Of a DNA stretch of 64,000 bases, positions 5,898 to 38,430 are shown piece by piece; the stretch's first letter is position 1; the number at the start of each line of letters is the position of its first letter. A program made the position numbers and the translations under genes. Below the pieces are notes generated by a model. The model had not been told where the DNA came from, made no database searches, and was given only the letters and a program-made list of their open reading frames with translations. The stretch is from positions 1 to 64,000 of the forward strand of contig CACEDU010000002.1 of assembly GCA_902558435.1 (NCBI GenBank), given 5' to 3'. The DNA is from an uncultured Pelagibacteraceae bacterium. GTDB taxonomy: Bacteria; Pseudomonadota; Alphaproteobacteria; Pelagibacterales; Pelagibacteraceae.

Positions 5898-5983
5898 GCG
5901 GCCATGCTGAAATTGGTAGACAGGCACGGTTGAGGGCCGTGTGGGTTTAACCCATGAGAGTTCAAATCTCTCTGGCCGCACCA
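5898..5983 (+). tRNA. tRNA-Leu (anticodon GAG)
   Basis: A class II tRNA with a long variable arm. The acceptor stem GCGGCCA at 5898 pairs with TGGCCGC ending at 5979, followed by the discriminator A and an encoded CCA (5980-5983). The anticodon stem CACGG/CCGTG encloses the loop TTGAGGG, giving anticodon GAG, which reads CUU and CUC. The T arm is GAGAG-TTCAAAT-CTCTC. The D arm contains the usual TGGTAGAC. It marks the left edge of the variable island that follows. Confidence 0.97.
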
Positions 5984-6019
5984 AAAAATAAGTTTTTTCA
6001 GCAAATTTTTTAACAAAGT

Positions 6020-6646
6020 TTAAAAATTAGTTTTTTTTAGTAGAAAAATCATTGAATTGCTTAAAGGATAAAATCTTCCGCTATACCTTATTTTCAATAT
6101 TTCCAGAGGTGCTTTTGACGAAAAAATTAATTTTTTAAATGTTTTAACTGAAAAAAATTTTATGTGTCCATGTTTCCAAAGAACTGTGTAGTGTTTGTCA
6201 TTTAGATTAAGTAAACTTATAAGTAAATTTTTAAAATAACCATGATAAGGTGTTGATATAATTATGTATCCATTTTTGTTTGTTATTTTAGACAATTTTA
6301 TAATAAAATCCATTGGGTCATATTGATGTTCTATTACTTCAATTGCAGTTACAAAATCAAATTTTTCCTCATTTTTAATTAAATTTTCTAAACTTTCATT
6401 TTTAAATTTTATTTTTTCATTTTCATATTTTTTTGCAAATTTTATACCATCTTCTGAAAGGTCTATGCCAAGAGATTTATTAAAAAATTTACAAAATTTA
6501 ATAGTTAATGCTCCATTGCCACAACCAACGTCAATATGATTTAGTGATTTGTAATTAGGATTGTTCAATAATTTTGACAAATCATGCTCTATTTTGGGAG
6601 TATGGTGATTGTCATTGTTCCATTCGTAATCTAGTTTTGTTAACAT
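6020..6646 (-). CDS. Class I SAM-dependent methyltransferase
   Basis: A small methyltransferase (208 residues) of the UbiG/Methyltransf_11-like type; the substrate is not evident. The SAM-binding motif I is HIDVGCGNGALTIKF, followed by an acidic residue in GIDLSEDG, and by FDFVTAIEVIEHQYDP, typical of this family. I choose the ATG at 6646, giving MLTKLDYEWNN. The frame is open for 17 codons further upstream to a TTG, but those codons run into the decayed tmRNA copy and are not credible protein. Very AT-rich; island setting and neighbouring FkbM-type enzyme suggest modification of a surface glycan or similar. Function is inferred. Confidence 0.8.
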   Translation of the reverse strand: MLTKLDYEWNNDNHHTPKIEHDLSKLLNNPNYKSLNHIDVGCGNGALTIKFCKFFNKSLGIDLSEDGIKFAKKYENEKIKFKNESLENLIKNEEKFDFVTAIEVIEHQYDPMDFIIKLSKITNKNGYIIISTPYHGYFKNLLISLLNLNDKHYTVLWKHGHIKFFSVKTFKKLIFSSKAPLEILKIRYSGRFYPLSNSMIFLLKKTNF

Positions 6647-6670
6647 ATTTTTAATATTGAACGCTTTTAG

Positions 6671-6870
6671 GTGGAGTTCTGTTGCCAGGAGCCCCAAGCC
6701 TCGTAACCTTATTAATATATATATTTATATATCAATTAAGCTGTAATTGCATAACTTTCGTTTGTATTTATAAATTAGTCCATTTCTGCGGAACAATACC
6801 GAATGAAAGAACAACTTTTAGTCACCCATCGATCCTAATTCACCCCCATAAGTTGAAAATGTTAGAGGTG
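6671..6870 (-). pseudogene. Decayed second copy of the permuted tmRNA gene
   Basis: Read on the minus strand this closely resembles the functional tmRNA at 9196-9440. From the GGGGGTG 5' end of the coding piece (6847) to just past the tag stop codon, 103 of 114 positions match without gaps; the 12-base intervening segment (6848-6859) is identical. Ten of the eleven differences are G/C in the intact gene and A/T here, the pattern expected of decay in an AT-biased genome. The tag frame (6736-6765) would encode TNESYAITA, the terminal CCA has become ACA, and similarity stops at 6870 where the T stem should begin. The 3' hairpin (6671-6695) has lost part of its GGGGC/GCCCC pairing. Without a T arm and CCA it should not be aminoacylated. 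Confidence 0.8.
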
Positions 6871-6991
6871 GGGGACGCCGCACATGAGGACTCAAGTCTC
6901 TCCGAGTGGACCAAGATTTTAAAAAGATAATAAAAACAAAAATTTATTGTATTGGTTTATAAAAACCTCAAATAATTTTGAAGAAATATCT

Positions 6992-7816
6992 TTATTTTAA
7001 AAAGTTGTAAAATCGATTTTTTAAGCTTTTTATTAGGGATGGAAAAATTCTTTTTAAGTGATACCTAAAACCTTGAGCATGTATAATTGGGTTATACCTA
7101 ATTTTACTTAAGTTCTTGTATTCTTTGATAGAACAATGAATATCTTTCCAACCTAATCCATTAATTAAAAAATATGGAAGTATAGACTTTTTGTCATAAT
7201 AATTTCCTAGAATATCATCCCCATAAGGGCCTGAAGAGTCAAAATCAAAATTTATTTTTTTTTTCTTATGATTAATATCTGCTATTTCAATATCTTTTAA
7301 TTTATTTCCTCCATCAATAAACTTAAAAGATTTATAAGGTGAATTTAAGATTAATCCAATGATATCACTATCAAAACATTCAACACTTAAATTATTTGGG
7401 ATAATTTTATTTTTAAACAAATCTTGAAGTATAAATTTATCATATCCCTCAACATCAATCTTAATATATTCAATTTCAGATATATCATAAATTTGTAAAT
7501 ATTTATTTATAAGAGAACTTACCTTTTCACATTTAACTTTTATTTTGTGATAATAATCTAAGTTTTCAGGGCATAGAGTGCTGTAAGTGTCATTAATTTT
7601 TGAGACGTAAAAATCTATAAATTCAATATTATCTTTATGTGAAACAGCAATATTATCAATTATTAATTTTTTGGATTGTACAAAATCATCAAATTTTGAT
7701 TTTATTTGATTTACTAGGTTAGTATCTGCTTCAATAGCAATAACTAAATCTGCTTTCTGTAAAAAATAATTTAAATTTTGCCCATTATTAGCGCCTATGT
7801 CAAAAATTATTTTCAT
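6992..7816 (-). CDS. FkbM-family methyltransferase
   Basis: A 274-residue SAM-dependent methyltransferase of the FkbM type, a family that often O-methylates sugars or secondary metabolites. The N terminus FDIGANNGQNLNYFL is the SAM-binding glycine-rich motif; VIAIEADTNLV follows with the ribose-binding acidic residue, and YIKIDVEGYDKFILQ near residue 118 is the diagnostic FkbM block. The C-terminal 80 residues are basic and not recognised. It stands alone between the decayed tmRNA copy and the third tmRNA fragment, so it looks like cargo of one of the inferred insertions. The target molecule is unknown. Confidence 0.85.
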   Translation of the reverse strand: MKIIFDIGANNGQNLNYFLQKADLVIAIEADTNLVNQIKSKFDDFVQSKKLIIDNIAVSHKDNIEFIDFYVSKINDTYSTLCPENLDYYHKIKVKCEKVSSLINKYLQIYDISEIEYIKIDVEGYDKFILQDLFKNKIIPNNLSVECFDSDIIGLILNSPYKSFKFIDGGNKLKDIEIADINHKKKKINFDFDSSGPYGDDILGNYYDKKSILPYFLINGLGWKDIHCSIKEYKNLSKIRYNPIIHAQGFRYHLKRIFPSLIKSLKNRFYNFLK

Positions 7817-7918
7817 TTTGATAATTAAATTTATACTATATTTTTCTTCAAATAAATTACGATTTAAAGTCTATCTTTAGAAAAGTTTTAAGTGCTAGCA
7901 ATTGTAAAGGTTGAAATA

Positions 7919-7941
7919 GGGCGTTCTGTTGCCAGGTGCCC
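7919..7941 (-). repeat. Third copy of the tmRNA 3'-end hairpin (att-like repeat)
   Basis: These 23 bases are identical to 9197-9219, the terminal hairpin of the functional tmRNA coding piece; the 14-base core GTTCTGTTGCCAGG (7923-7936) also occurs at 6676-6689 and 9201-9214. The arms GGGC and GCCC would still form a hairpin. Nothing else of tmRNA is present here apart from a possible TAACTT remnant just to the right. The three cores are spaced about 1.25 and 1.28 kb apart and share orientation. The rest of the gap 7817-8064 shows nothing else except one of the 20-base repeats. Confidence 0.8.
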
Positions 7942-8001
7942 TTAACTTTATTTGATTATAGCCAATTATTTTTCCAAAATCATATAAATTTTACGTATTA
8001 G

Positions 8002-8021
8002 GACGAGTAGAGGACGAGTCA
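8002..8021. repeat. 20-base direct repeat, copy 1
   Basis: GACGAGTAGAGGACGAGTCA, exact copy at 9121-9140. The two copies bracket the orphan genes 8065-9113. The unit is itself an imperfect tandem of GACGAGT. At this copy the second half continues into an inverted repeat, GACGAGTC (8013-8020) and GACTCGTC (8027-8034), able to form an 8-bp hairpin with a six-base loop; copy 2 lacks the second arm. Confidence 0.85.
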
Positions 8022-8064
8022 AAATCGACTCGTCACAGATTGTTGGATTTGATAAACTTTGATT

Positions 8065-8406
8065 ATGAAAAAGCTTTTAGGAATACTAGTTCTGAGTTTG
8101 TTATTAAGTGGAAATGTATATGCAGATTGCTTTGACGATTTAGATTTTGAGAGTAAATGGTATGATGTTAAATATCCATATCAGGAGTTCACTTTTAAAA
8201 ATAAATCTAAAAATACAATTGAAATTGTTAAGACAGGTATCTATGCAAAAGATTCAAAGGATATAGTCATAGAATGGAACGATATTCCAACTATTGTGTT
8301 TGGCTATAGGCAAGTAACGTTTAGCTATGGTTATTTAGGAAATTTAAATCCTGATATATTGGGAAAAAGGTATTATGCTTGTAAATACAATTACGACTAT
8401 GATTAA
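8065..8406 (+). CDS. Small secreted protein, unknown function
   Basis: 113 residues from the ATG at 8065; a TTG two codons earlier is a less likely start. The first 20 residues, MKKLLGILVLSLLLSGNVYA, are a classical Sec signal peptide with cleavage expected after VYA, so the mature protein of about 93 residues should be periplasmic. The mature part begins DCFDDLDFESKWYDVKYPYQ and has two cysteines, many Tyr/Asp/Lys and no recognised domain; the middle (FTFKNKSKNTIEIVKTGIYAKD) is beta-rich in character. It is the first gene of the segment bracketed by the 20-base repeats, with the next gene nine bases downstream. I do not recognise it. Confidence 0.75.
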   Translation: MKKLLGILVLSLLLSGNVYADCFDDLDFESKWYDVKYPYQEFTFKNKSKNTIEIVKTGIYAKDSKDIVIEWNDIPTIVFGYRQVTFSYGYLGNLNPDILGKRYYACKYNYDYD

Positions 8407-8415
8407 AGTAAATAT

Positions 8416-9012
8416 ATGAACTTTGTTCAAACGTATTTCCAAAAGAGAACTAATAACTCTGTTGCTAATCTTGACTATGAGCTTGCTGAGCAATTTATGA
8501 ATGCTGACTTTAAATTTGTAGAAAGAGATTTAGATAAAAATGGACAATACGATGGAATATTAATCGGCAAAAAATTCTTTCATTTAGAAGGCATTTTTTT
8601 ATTCCTTACCGATAGAACTTTGAGCCATCCACAAGTCCCTTATCGCCACGAAGATAGAGGTGGAAAATTTGGTAATATTTTAAAAGAGATGGGATTTGGT
8701 AATAGGAAAGTAATTTGGCAACCTTCAGATCTTTTTGATTTAGATGGTTATTTAGATGCTAATTGGTTTCCAGAACAATTAAAAATGTATCACAGAGAAT
8801 ATGATGAATTACTTGAAGCCAAAGAACTTTATAGTGAAAGGGCTATAAGTTTTTTAGATTATTTTTTTAAACGCTTAGATACTTACTATGTTTGTGAAAT
8901 GCCTACTTTTATAAAGTATTATAGAGGCGTTGATTTAGAAAAATATAAAGATAAAATCAGAAGAATAACTAATGACTTTCCACATTTAAATGAAAAAGGA
9001 GAAGTGATTTAA
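8416..9012 (+). CDS. Hypothetical protein, 198 residues
   Basis: I do not recognise this protein. It has no signal peptide or membrane segment and is probably cytoplasmic. Visible features: an acidic N-terminal third with DLDKNGQYDG, which resembles a calcium-binding or dockerin-like loop but occurs once only; the run HPQVPYRHEDRGGKFGN; and an aromatic-rich C-terminal half (FLDYFFKRLDTYYVCEMPTFIKYYRG). It follows the small secreted protein with a nine-base gap and ends in TAATG shared with the next tiny ORF, so the three are probably one transcript. Presence only between direct repeats suggests accessory cargo. Confidence 0.65.
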   Translation: MNFVQTYFQKRTNNSVANLDYELAEQFMNADFKFVERDLDKNGQYDGILIGKKFFHLEGIFLFLTDRTLSHPQVPYRHEDRGGKFGNILKEMGFGNRKVIWQPSDLFDLDGYLDANWFPEQLKMYHREYDELLEAKELYSERAISFLDYFFKRLDTYYVCEMPTFIKYYRGVDLEKYKDKIRRITNDFPHLNEKGEVI

Positions 9013-9113
9013 TGGAAAAATTTATATTAGAGACTTTAAAAAAATATCCAAAAAAGAAGTTTAGAATAAATTTTAAAGATACTTATCTCTATAAGTTATT
9101 GAGTAAAATTTAA
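9012..9113 (+). CDS. Tiny ORF, 33 residues, basic
   Basis: An ATG overlapping the stop codon of the preceding gene (TAATG) opens a 33-codon frame, MEKFILETLKKYPKKKFRIN at its start, ending in TAA at 9113. Eleven of 33 residues are lysine or arginine. The translational-coupling arrangement supports it being real, but it could be a remnant of a longer gene truncated at the repeat that starts eight bases later. No function can be given. Confidence 0.35.
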   Translation: MEKFILETLKKYPKKKFRINFKDTYLYKLLSKI

Positions 9114-9120
9114 TCATAAT

Positions 9121-9140
9121 GACGAGTAGAGGACGAGTCA
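9121..9140. repeat. 20-base direct repeat, copy 2
   Basis: Exact second copy of GACGAGTAGAGGACGAGTCA (first at 8002-8021), just after the tiny ORF and about 55 bases before the tmRNA 3' end. Between 9141 and 9195 nothing else is seen. Confidence 0.85.
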
Positions 9141-9195
9141 TCAGGTTGTATTTTTAAATTAACGTTGATTATTAGAACTTATTTAAGAGTAGGAA

Positions 9196-9440
9196 GGGGC
9201 GTTCTGTTGCCAGGTGCCCCAAACCCCGTAACTTAATTAGTAAACTAATTAAGCTGCAAGTGCGTAACTTTCGTTAGCATTTATAAATTAGCCCATCGCG
9301 GCGGAACAATACCGAACGAAAGAACAACTTTTAGTCACCCGTCGATCCTAATTCACCCCCATAAGTTGAAAATGGTGGAGGTGGTGGGTACTGCCCCCAC
9401 GTCCGTAATGTTTATTACGAAATTCGTTTATCGTCATAGT
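9196..9440 (-). ncRNA. ssrA: Transfer-messenger RNA, circularly permuted two-piece form
   Basis: Read leftward. The acceptor piece comes first: T arm GTGGG-GGCAGTA-CCCAC, acceptor strand CACCTCC, then ACCA ending at 9373. A 12-base intervening segment (9361-9372) follows, then the coding piece from GGGGGTG at 9360, which pairs with CACCTCC. The tag frame at 9249-9278 reads GCT AAC GAA AGT TAC GCA CTT GCA GCT TAA, peptide ANESYALAA, close to the common ANDENYALAA type. The coding piece ends in a hairpin closed by GGGGC/GCCCC (9196-9220). The 5' end of the acceptor piece is uncertain; AACGAA near 9425-9430 could pair with TTCGTT of the coding piece. With SmpB it rescues stalled ribosomes and tags proteins for proteolysis. 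Confidence 0.95.
9201..9214 (-). repeat. tmRNA 3'-end core, intact copy of the att-like repeat
   Basis: Core GTTCTGTTGCCAGG inside the terminal hairpin of the functional tmRNA; repeated at 6676-6689 and 7923-7936. In other bacteria the 3' part of ssrA is a frequent integrase target, so this is the likely original attachment sequence. Confidence 0.6.
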
Positions 9441-9496
9441 TGGAAAACCAACACGATTAATATAAAACCAATATTAAGAGATTCAATAATTAATTC

Positions 9497-37697: not shown

Positions 37698-37762
37698 AAA
37701 ATTCCTGTAATCTTGAAATAAATAAATAATGCAAATTTATATGCTTATGATATTATCATTTT

Positions 37763-37778
37763 TAGATAGTCCTATCTA
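37763..37778. promoter_or_regulatory. Palindrome in the gap before the LysE/RhtB gene
   Basis: TAGATAG-TC-CTATCTA, a perfect seven-base palindrome around a two-base centre, in the 118-base gap between divergent genes. A second, weaker inverted pair (TAGCTCCC and GGGCTA) lies at about 37787-37813. Could be an operator; no regulator gene is adjacent. Confidence 0.35.
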
Positions 37779-37815
37779 GCCATCTTTAGCTCCCGGTTTT
37801 TTAGGGCTATCCATC

Positions 37816-38430
37816 ATGCTTCCGTTAAATTATTTTCTATTTCTTCAAATTATCCTATTCATGTTTATCACTCCTGGAACTCCTAGAATTGTAATCATTT
37901 CATATTCTATGAATTATGGTGTTAGAAATTGTGTTTGGACTGCACTAGGAGATGTTACTGCAAATATTGTTCAAGCATGTCTTGTAATTTTTGTAATTGG
38001 ATCTTTTATCTCTGATAACCCAACTTTATTAAATATTTTTAAATGGTTTGGTGTAATTTATATACTTTACCTAGCATTCGACATTTATAAATCTAAACCT
38101 AAAGATATTAACTCAACTGAAACTTTACAAAAAAGTTCGTTGTCATTTTTTAAAGATGGTTTTTTAGTTGCGGGCACAAGTCCTAAAGCTTGGATGTTTT
38201 TTCCTTTTATTTTTCCTCAGTTCATTGATTTTAATTCAAATTACGTTGCACAATTTTTAATTTTAATAACAACTTATGTAATATTAGATTTTTTATCTTT
38301 GGTTGGTTATGCAGTCTTAGCAAATAAAATGATTACATGGGTTAAAGCAAAAGCAAAGGTCATAAACACAATTTCTGCGTGCGTCCTAGTTGTTATAGCT
38401 CTTATAATTGCATTTATGCAACAATATTGA
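37816..38430 (+). CDS. LysE/RhtB-family amino-acid exporter
   Basis: 204 residues, six hydrophobic segments. N-terminal LQIILFMFITPGTPRIVIISYSMNYGVRNCVW is the LysE/RhtB signature, with the typical TPG motif. KDGFLVAGTSPKAWMFFPFIFPQF near residue 112 is the second family block. RhtB-type carriers export homoserine, threonine, leucine or other neutral amino acids by proton exchange; no substrate can be read. Comes just before the first branched-chain ABC operon, which may be meaningful. Confidence 0.85.
   Translation: MLPLNYFLFLQIILFMFITPGTPRIVIISYSMNYGVRNCVWTALGDVTANIVQACLVIFVIGSFISDNPTLLNIFKWFGVIYILYLAFDIYKSKPKDINSTETLQKSSLSFFKDGFLVAGTSPKAWMFFPFIFPQFIDFNSNYVAQFLILITTYVILDFLSLVGYAVLANKMITWVKAKAKVINTISACVLVVIALIIAFMQQY

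Follow-up and report, generated by a model that had tools for sequence, protein, structure and literature searches.

The 3' end of the permuted tmRNA gene in Pelagibacterales as a probable integration hotspot for very small cassettes

Islands at RNA genes and the tmRNA locus of the window

The tmRNA gene, ssrA, is a one-piece gene in Dehalococcoides; in cyanobacteria, islands are said to lie at the 3' end of a permuted ssrA (Williams, in 2003, under the title 'Traffic at the tmRNA gene'). The cyanobacterial case resembles the one described here in that integration takes place at the non-tRNA-like 3' end made by gene permutation, in a different phylum.

Of the systems already described, the closest is the array of ssrA islands in Dehalococcoides. 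According to the sections of that report used here, its islands are arranged in tandem downstream of ssrA and are bounded by ssrA or by a direct repeat of 20 bp from its 3' end; an integration module is absent from 15 of the 31 islands, and 16 have a serine-recombinase module (PMC3146451). Here too, units in tandem have repeats of the ssrA 3' end as their borders, although in 7 of 40 loci the cores occur without a tmRNA in the stretch. Two differences emerge from the same sections (PMC3146451): the crossover in Dehalococcoides is in the T loop, whereas here the non-tRNA-like 3' end of a permuted gene serves as the core, and the units described here are mostly 0.3-3 kb with no recombinase found, in contrast to the serine-recombinase modules of Dehalococcoides.

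In the islands collected by Islander, as here, a regenerated target and a displaced fragment mark the ends (PMC4383910, in the parts used). The same parts indicate that this procedure looks for an integrase gene and admits a tandem array only if each member has an integrase and a fragment of its own; the arrays described here would be filtered out because an integrase is required of each member (PMC4383910). SAR11 genomes are very small, and gene exchange of this kind would be missed by an island finder with such a requirement. A third relevant case is the additive flexible island of 'Ca. Methylopumilus', in which the last 20 bp of tRNA-Lys recur. As here, an additive island of a streamlined aquatic bacterium has 3' repeats of an RNA gene as its limits, but the bacterium is another one, the target is tRNA-Lys, and the sections of the report in question describe no ssrA array (PMC10872708).

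No description of ssrA cassette arrays in SAR11 was found in the literature searched, which included few subscription papers and does not prove that such arrays are unpublished. As far as this literature goes, the new elements are the use of the permuted-tmRNA 3' end as a core, the tiny units in which no recombinase was detected, the presence of the same core behind an RNase H gene, and cargo common to units at tRNA-Met. This appears to be a little-described route of gene swapping in very common marine bacteria.

The window, i.e. the whole stretch of 64,000 nucleotides that was analysed, comes from a Pelagibacteraceae genome of 1.32 Mb in 28 contigs. Its features relevant to this study are the following.

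5898..5983, plus strand: tRNA-Leu(GAG) (ARAGORN; relatives), the other border of the island and the near neighbour of tmRNA in empty sites
5984-9191: island between tRNA-Leu(GAG) and tmRNA
6020..6697, minus strand: methyltransferase ORF between the decayed tmRNA and tRNA-Leu; its real start is probably further in than the listed TTG, which overlaps the decayed copy
6668..6874, minus strand: decayed partial tmRNA (T-stem 3' strand, acceptor 3' strand, intervening segment, coding piece, 3' end)
6670..6695, minus strand: core sequence inside the decayed copy, 4 mismatches in 26
6875..6913, plus strand: diverged tRNA 3' end, nearest to tRNA-Leu(GAG), 24/34 over 6880-6913
6992..7816, minus strand: FkbM-type methyltransferase gene within the island (PF05050, E 1.1e-6)
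7917-9220: cassette 1, between two cores
7917..7942, minus strand: third ssrA fragment, the displaced core at the distal end of cassette 1, 3 mismatches in 26
8002..8021, plus strand: second copy of the two-part direct repeat, 59 bp inside the distal core
8065..8406, plus strand: cassette 1 cargo, 113 aa, without Pfam family, leader MKKLLGI...LSGN.YA
8416..9012, plus strand: cassette 1 cargo, 198 aa, without Pfam family
9121..9140, plus strand: two-part direct repeat GACGAGTAGAGGACGAGTCA, candidate arm-type site, 54 bp inside the tmRNA-side core
9158..9490, minus strand: intact permuted tmRNA (ssrA), tag ANESYALAA, anchor of the array (ARAGORN 9158-9468; RF01849 9490-9192, 227.2 bits)
9195..9220, minus strand: 26-bp core, candidate attachment site, at the 3' end of the intact coding piece, 0 mismatches to the consensus GGGGCACCTGGCAACAGAACGCCCCT

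Both genes are present in 26 loci of relatives, and in 21 of these just 16-28 bp separate tmRNA from tRNA-Leu, a count biased toward empty sites since many of the 26 loci span just 1.5 kb; the gaps in the remaining five are 155, 270, 1362, 1386 and 6646 bp. The gap in the window is 3.2 kb, and the island at 5984-9191 is therefore an insertion at the conserved tRNA-Leu/tmRNA junction. In the nearest relatives thyX lies on the opposite side of tmRNA (the thyX of the window matches PF02511). Since the relatives keep the intact tmRNA between thyX and tRNA-Leu, the intact gene is the resident one. The initial annotation had raised the possibility that an incoming intact copy displaced the ancestral gene, or the reverse, and had proposed synteny with thyX as the arbiter; with thyX on one side of the intact copy and tRNA-Leu 16-28 bp away on the other in the relatives, neither form of this displacement is supported.

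The window has three copies of the tmRNA 3' end. All share one orientation, the two extra ones being downstream of the intact gene, and this is the arrangement that repeated integration into the 3' end of an RNA gene would produce. The third copy, at 7919-7941, is identical to the intact gene over 23/23 positions (E 6.1e-5 in a BLAST search of the own genome), with a chance expectation from base composition of about 2e-11 per genome. Cassette 1 thus has an intact target at 9195-9220, a displaced fragment on the same strand at 7917-7942 and an empty counterpart in relatives (21/26 loci). It contains no integrase gene, its two ORFs belonging to no Pfam family, and the ORF list and Pfam revealed no integrase-like ORF in the island as a whole. 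Elsewhere in the window, an rhtB sRNA (RF01814, 74.6 bits) was found on the plus strand at 37747-37829.

Core arrays in related genomes

The 13-base pattern of the tmRNA 3' end, CCTGGCAACAGAA, was found in 217 of 297 genomes of the family. At least two copies were present in about 110 of the 297, with up to six (hand tally, other contigs and strands included), and the reversed pattern used as a control gave 4 matches overall. Among the places listed, many were in tandem, on one strand and 0.3-4 kb apart; others were on separate contigs. Forty stretches from 36 genomes, most of them picked for several copies, were fetched and analysed with the window, giving 41 sequences.

The 26-bp core common to the arrays is the consensus given above. 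When cores were counted with up to 6 mismatches, we obtained 56 inter-core intervals in the 41 sequences, 55 of them of 274-4174 bp and one of 13,653 bp; no core on the opposite strand was found in the window or the 40 loci. The fragments of tmRNA in the arrays start at query positions 230-295, mostly 250-284. In the 25 arrays starting with an intact tmRNA, the mean number of core mismatches is 0.0 at the tmRNA and 0.92 at the second copy, and it reaches 2.0 at the third (10 arrays). Because mismatches rise away from the tmRNA, units seem to enter at the tmRNA while older ones are pushed outward and decay. The arrays thereby give exact, countable insertion units and an apparent order of insertion from core decay.

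The flanks of the cores form families. Both arms belong to the same cluster in 24 of the 35 intervals in which both were assigned (hand count), including cassette 1 of the window, whose two arms are in cluster 2; among the 11 intervals with arms of different clusters, 8 correspond to one recurring cluster pair. In addition, a non-simple repeat of at least 12 bases lies just inside both ends in 7 of the 56 intervals, the window's included, and in three intervals this repeat is itself built of two short direct repeats. The arm-type sites of lambda-type integrases can consist of such short direct repeats. When we searched for the arm-plus-core pattern, all 80 named records listed, out of 118 stretches, were Pelagibacteraceae, Pelagibacterales or Candidatus Pelagibacter.

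Most genes of the largest interval (L065, 13.7 kb between cores) lie on the tmRNA strand, in contrast to the small antisense cassettes that are usual. Judged by the starts of its ORFs, this unit looks like sugar or surface biosynthesis.

In our view very small mobile cassettes of Pelagibacterales probably use the tmRNA 3' end as an integration hotspot, the window being an occupied site; this degree of confidence covers the whole explanation, that is the hotspot together with the duplication discussed below. We infer that a recombinase would join the 26-bp core carried by a circular cassette to the identical core at the tmRNA 3' end. The tmRNA would be restored with the core of the cassette, and the old core would be shoved to the far side. 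Such a recombinase would have to act in trans, because none was found inside the cassettes. Indeed, 31 phage-integrase hits (PF00589) were obtained in 28 of 32 genomes and none of them was within an array. Integron cassette arrays have an IntI gene and attC sites that recombine as folded single strands; with the same profile and genomes, no tyrosine recombinase was detected in the arrays described here. Resolvase-type recombinases (PF00239) were found in 0 of the 32 genomes, 10 of 14 controls being positive, and a serine-recombinase integration module of the Dehalococcoides kind was not observed. The arrays also differ from tycheposons, which, in the sections of PMC10872708 that describe them, combine a tRNA border with a tyrosine recombinase of their own.

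On contig C12 of the window's own genome (L300 1225-2878), a 422-aa phage-integrase ORF (PF00589, E 2.2e-6) lies 0.3 kb past tRNA-Cys, with many small ORFs on the opposite strand beyond it. By its gene arrangement this region looks like a prophage or a phage satellite, and it is a candidate helper. Other candidates are a protein of about 325 aa, found in single copy in most of the genomes searched for PF00589, and the integrases of pelagiphages.

In viral sequences, the exact 21-base core is present in 8 contigs, each with a tmRNA match of 216-287 bp. The arm-plus-core pattern, which covers some of the arm families only, was found in no virus of the viral collection. These viral contigs (L110-L117) hold permuted tmRNA genes that group apart from the host genes.

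Cargo and target genes other than ssrA

Setting aside the 16 ORFs of the large interval, 84 of 96 cassette ORFs of at least 60 aa are antisense to the core/tmRNA strand. Both methyltransferase genes of the window island run with the tmRNA and so may not be ordinary cassettes. Many cassette proteins are small and have a near-identical leader (MKKLLAIVVLGLLWSGNA-like), for example in L040, L063, L066, L067 and the window ORF at 8065-8406, which reads as if cargo were swapped behind one start. For Pfam and PADLOC, 10 proteins each were picked by hand, in partly overlapping sets. An inverse-autotransporter beta domain and Mrr and GIY-YIG nuclease domains were identified, and PADLOC assigned L042 7168-8124 to the candidate defence family PDC-S11 (E 2.1e-123) and L044 7464-8384 to PDC-S02 (E 2.9e-44); several of the hand-picked proteins had no Pfam or PADLOC match. 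The cargo of the arrays thus includes candidate phage-defence and surface proteins. A two-gene unit (~238 + 286 aa) occurs at differing array positions in five genomes.

The 198-aa protein of cassette 1 has matches in 7 of 398 other genomes of the genus, and no ssrA core was found at these seven loci. Three of them are beside a tRNA-Met gene or its 3' fragment. L301 has two units whose borders are direct copies of the tRNA-Met(CAT) end, covering at least its last 45 nt, and the second unit contains an 82% identical full-length match; L302 has a 36-residue remnant of the protein in a unit laid out in the same way, and in G370 a partial match is separated by 144 bp from a copy of the tRNA-Met end. 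No tRNA was found within the other four loci. The presence of this protein in both ssrA and tRNA-Met units indicates that one cargo family rides in units with different targets. The 25-base tRNA-Met end was found in 143 of 201 genomes of the genus, with at least two copies in 11, and in 9 of these 11 the copies are in tandem on the same strand, 1.1-2.3 kb apart (hand tally). The units at this tRNA-Met(CAT) hotspot (L301 1521-5933, L302 2841-4749) are small and without evident integrase.

In 7 of the 40 loci we saw cores but no tmRNA in their vicinity. In five of these seven, the first core lies 0-3 bases past the stop codon of a 140-aa gene; the genes of all five loci are alike (blastp), and the two tested encode RNase H (PF00075). 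The first core is followed by none to six further cores. In oriented coordinates, these first cores are located as follows.

L044 6194: first core behind the RNase H-type gene
L045 6721: first core behind the RNase H-type gene
L047 6887: first core behind the RNase H-type gene
L073 6001: first core behind the RNase H-type gene
L078 5723: first core behind the RNase H-type gene

Two genomes, G083 and G101, have cores at the tmRNA and also at the RNase H gene. In another genome (G051), two single cores are on the same contig as the tmRNA, about 290 and 325 kb from it.

L053 6350: single exact core behind a short ORF
L054 6925: single exact core behind a short ORF

These single cores may be secondary sites or terminators. 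Since the core also lies behind the RNase H gene, ssrA is not the sole site; the cores found elsewhere weaken the term 'ssrA-specific' and leave 'cassette array' standing.

The positions of these cores, 0-3 bases past the RNase H stop codon in five loci and 15-17 bases past short ORFs in two, are also what would be expected if the cores were a dispersed terminator-like repeat (a GGGGC...GCCCC hairpin) that spreads or is duplicated behind genes and does not serve for attachment, the 'cassettes' being merely the genes between repeats. This explanation is very unlikely in view of the tandem copies on one strand, with their gradient of mismatches away from the tmRNA, of flanks that recur as arm families, of the empty sites in many relatives, and of the cargo family that is also found between exact tRNA-Met 3' ends elsewhere.

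The integration hotspot could be part of something broader. Units of ~0.3-3 kb, made of a core, arm sites and one or a few genes of cargo and lacking their own recombinase, might constitute a trans-mobilised SAR11 cassette system. Such units would be stacked at the 3' ends of the permuted ssrA, of the RNase H gene (same core) and of tRNA-Met (other core), would swap cargo between target specificities and would be served by a host Xer-like or a phage or satellite recombinase. We propose this tentatively, judging its chances to be a little short of even. If true, it would work like an integron without the integron integrase beside it.

The decayed tmRNA copy and its origin

Pseudogenes of tmRNA and fragments made by islands were already noted by the authors of the tmRNA Website; in the parts of that report used here the cases include neither one from SAR11 nor, unlike the window, a copy fused to a tRNA (PMC4131195). 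The decayed copy at 6668-6874 matches the intact permuted tmRNA well above chance (E 5.6e-55, BLAST search of the own genome). The initial annotation had described it as a second permuted tmRNA on the minus strand, and its particulars were recovered here: 103/114 identical positions from the 5' end of the coding piece to the tag stop when recomputed, an intervening segment identical at 12/12 positions, G/C to A/T changes in 10 of the 11 coding-piece differences on recounting the alignment, a tag that reads by eye as TNESYAITA, and ACA in the place of CCA. The alignable part passes through the acceptor-stem 3' strand, reaches into the T-stem 3' strand, ends at 6874 and corresponds to a start at position 114 of the tmRNA query; neither the T loop nor anything upstream of it is present. 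The post-tag part is worse eroded, with 8/13 identities over 6723-6735 and a 12-base A/T insertion. This erosion, the island context, the third ssrA fragment and the tRNA-Leu-like piece are additions to the initial annotation.

When aligned with 62 host tmRNAs, the decayed copy departs from the consensus in 21 of the 152 columns that are at least 95% conserved, compared with 1 for the intact gene. The covariance model RF01849, run on both loci as had been proposed, gave the decayed copy 75.7 bits, over the gathering score of 50, vs 227.2 bits for the intact gene. Its match (7006-6668) leaves 46 bases unaligned at the place of the T arm and many 5' pairs unmatched, and so does not amount to a full-length tmRNA with an alternative T arm and CCA; ARAGORN reports the intact tmRNA alone. 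Neither a complete T arm with the 5' acceptor-side piece nor a CCA end for charging is present, and the earlier view of a decayed partial ssrA copy unable to act as tmRNA is borne out: 6668-6874 is a pseudogene.

In a BLAST survey with the tmRNA, in which 290 of 399 genomes of the genus matched at E <=0.01 (a few just at chance level), no second long copy was found in the 398 other genomes; the second matches in 21 genomes, besides that of the window, are each of 21-35 bp. In a tree, the branch of the decayed copy is 0.19 long vs a median end branch of 0.0063; the copy falls among the tmRNA genes of the window's genus, its exact position unresolved, and apart from the 8 viral tmRNAs. The intact and decayed copies both have A/T at columns 180 and 220, a state seen in 0 of 28 relatives aligned. 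On the strength of this shared state, in two columns alone, they look like paralogues of one lineage.

The T-stem break of the decayed copy abuts the tRNA 3' end at 6875-6913 on the plus strand. Among the 26 tRNA genes of the genome, tRNA-Leu(GAG) is the best match for this piece (23/33 vs a 99% point of 19 for shuffled sequences), and it is also the best in a complete relative (30/32 tRNA loci and six leu loci). Rfam gave no match on 6840-6960 with E up to 10, so that the identification of the tRNA piece is an alignment result. No tRNA of the own genome is within 3 mismatches of the 24-base end of the piece, its fold is no better than those of shuffles, and BLAST of the tRNA-like piece and the tmRNA against the phage collection gave no match.

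Judged by its extent in the alignment, the decayed copy is not an ordinary displaced core, as those start much nearer the 3' end. Given the island, we lean slightly towards its being the remains of a tandem duplication of a short stretch with one end in the tRNA-Leu variable arm and the other in the tmRNA T stem. The joint would have formed at CCCAC, shared by the tRNA-Leu variable arm and the tmRNA T stem, and the resulting order would be tRNA-Leu, tmRNA 3' part (decayed), tRNA-Leu 3' part, tmRNA; insertions on either side would then have shifted the extra copy off its neighbours. Lacking the T loop and the 5' piece, this copy would never have worked, and so decayed. The normal neighbour of tmRNA is tRNA-Leu(GAG). 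A duplication predicts both the fused joint and the order of the four RNA pieces, and the A/T state common to the two tmRNA copies also speaks for it. The 70-base joint predicted from six relatives and from the window itself (best L051) aligns without gaps, with identities of 20-21/30 in the tRNA-Leu part, 5-7/13 in the junction and 22-25/27 in the tmRNA part. Against a duplication, the tRNA-Leu piece is more diverged than the tmRNA piece (24/34, with 2/7 in the acceptor strand), its changes are toward A/T in 5/10 cases only, and no core or spacer that a duplication would predict is recognisable by eye at 6914-6991 or 5984-6019.

It is unlikely that the decayed copy is instead the displaced 3' part of the host gene, left by an element of another integrase that entered the tmRNA T arm and supplied the present 3' two thirds. 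The break in the T stem is near a classic crossover place, a crossover in the T loop of a permuted gene should leave behind some 200 bp, and the intact 3' part is nearest to L086 and L106 (3 differences each) while thyX is nearest to L088, L087 and L096. However, both 3' parts carry the A/T state seen in none of the 28 relatives, a direct junction to a tRNA-Leu-like end is not predicted, the island has no integrase-like ORF, and such a fragment occurs in no other genome of the 399.

An element inserted in tRNA-Leu(GAG) and spanning 5984-6913 would account for the orientation and the place of the piece at 6875-6913, which would be the displaced tRNA end, with the decayed tmRNA as cargo from an imprecise excision; tRNA-directed units with such fragments do exist in the genus (L301, L302). 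Their tRNA-Met fragments are, however, identical over 45 nt vs 24/34 here, and the abutment of the tmRNA break on the tRNA break is left unexplained, which makes this origin decidedly unlikely.

A phage- or element-borne tmRNA gene as the source, conceivable because viral contigs with long permuted-tmRNA matches exist, is highly improbable: the 8 viral genes cluster on their own with 100/100 support, and the copy in the window sits among host genes of the same genus. On the tree, we rejected a phage origin. That the copy is still in use, e.g. as a regulatory RNA or a reduced tmRNA, is scarcely credible despite an open tag frame, a coding piece 90% identical and an RF01849 score above gathering, since it lacks the T arm and the 5' piece, has ACA for CCA and 21/152 conserved columns broken, and was seen in none of the 398 relatives surveyed.

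The decayed tmRNA is in itself minor, and it led to the hotspot; with duplication as the preferred origin, it suggests a route by which a convergent tmRNA/tRNA pair could be duplicated and fused.
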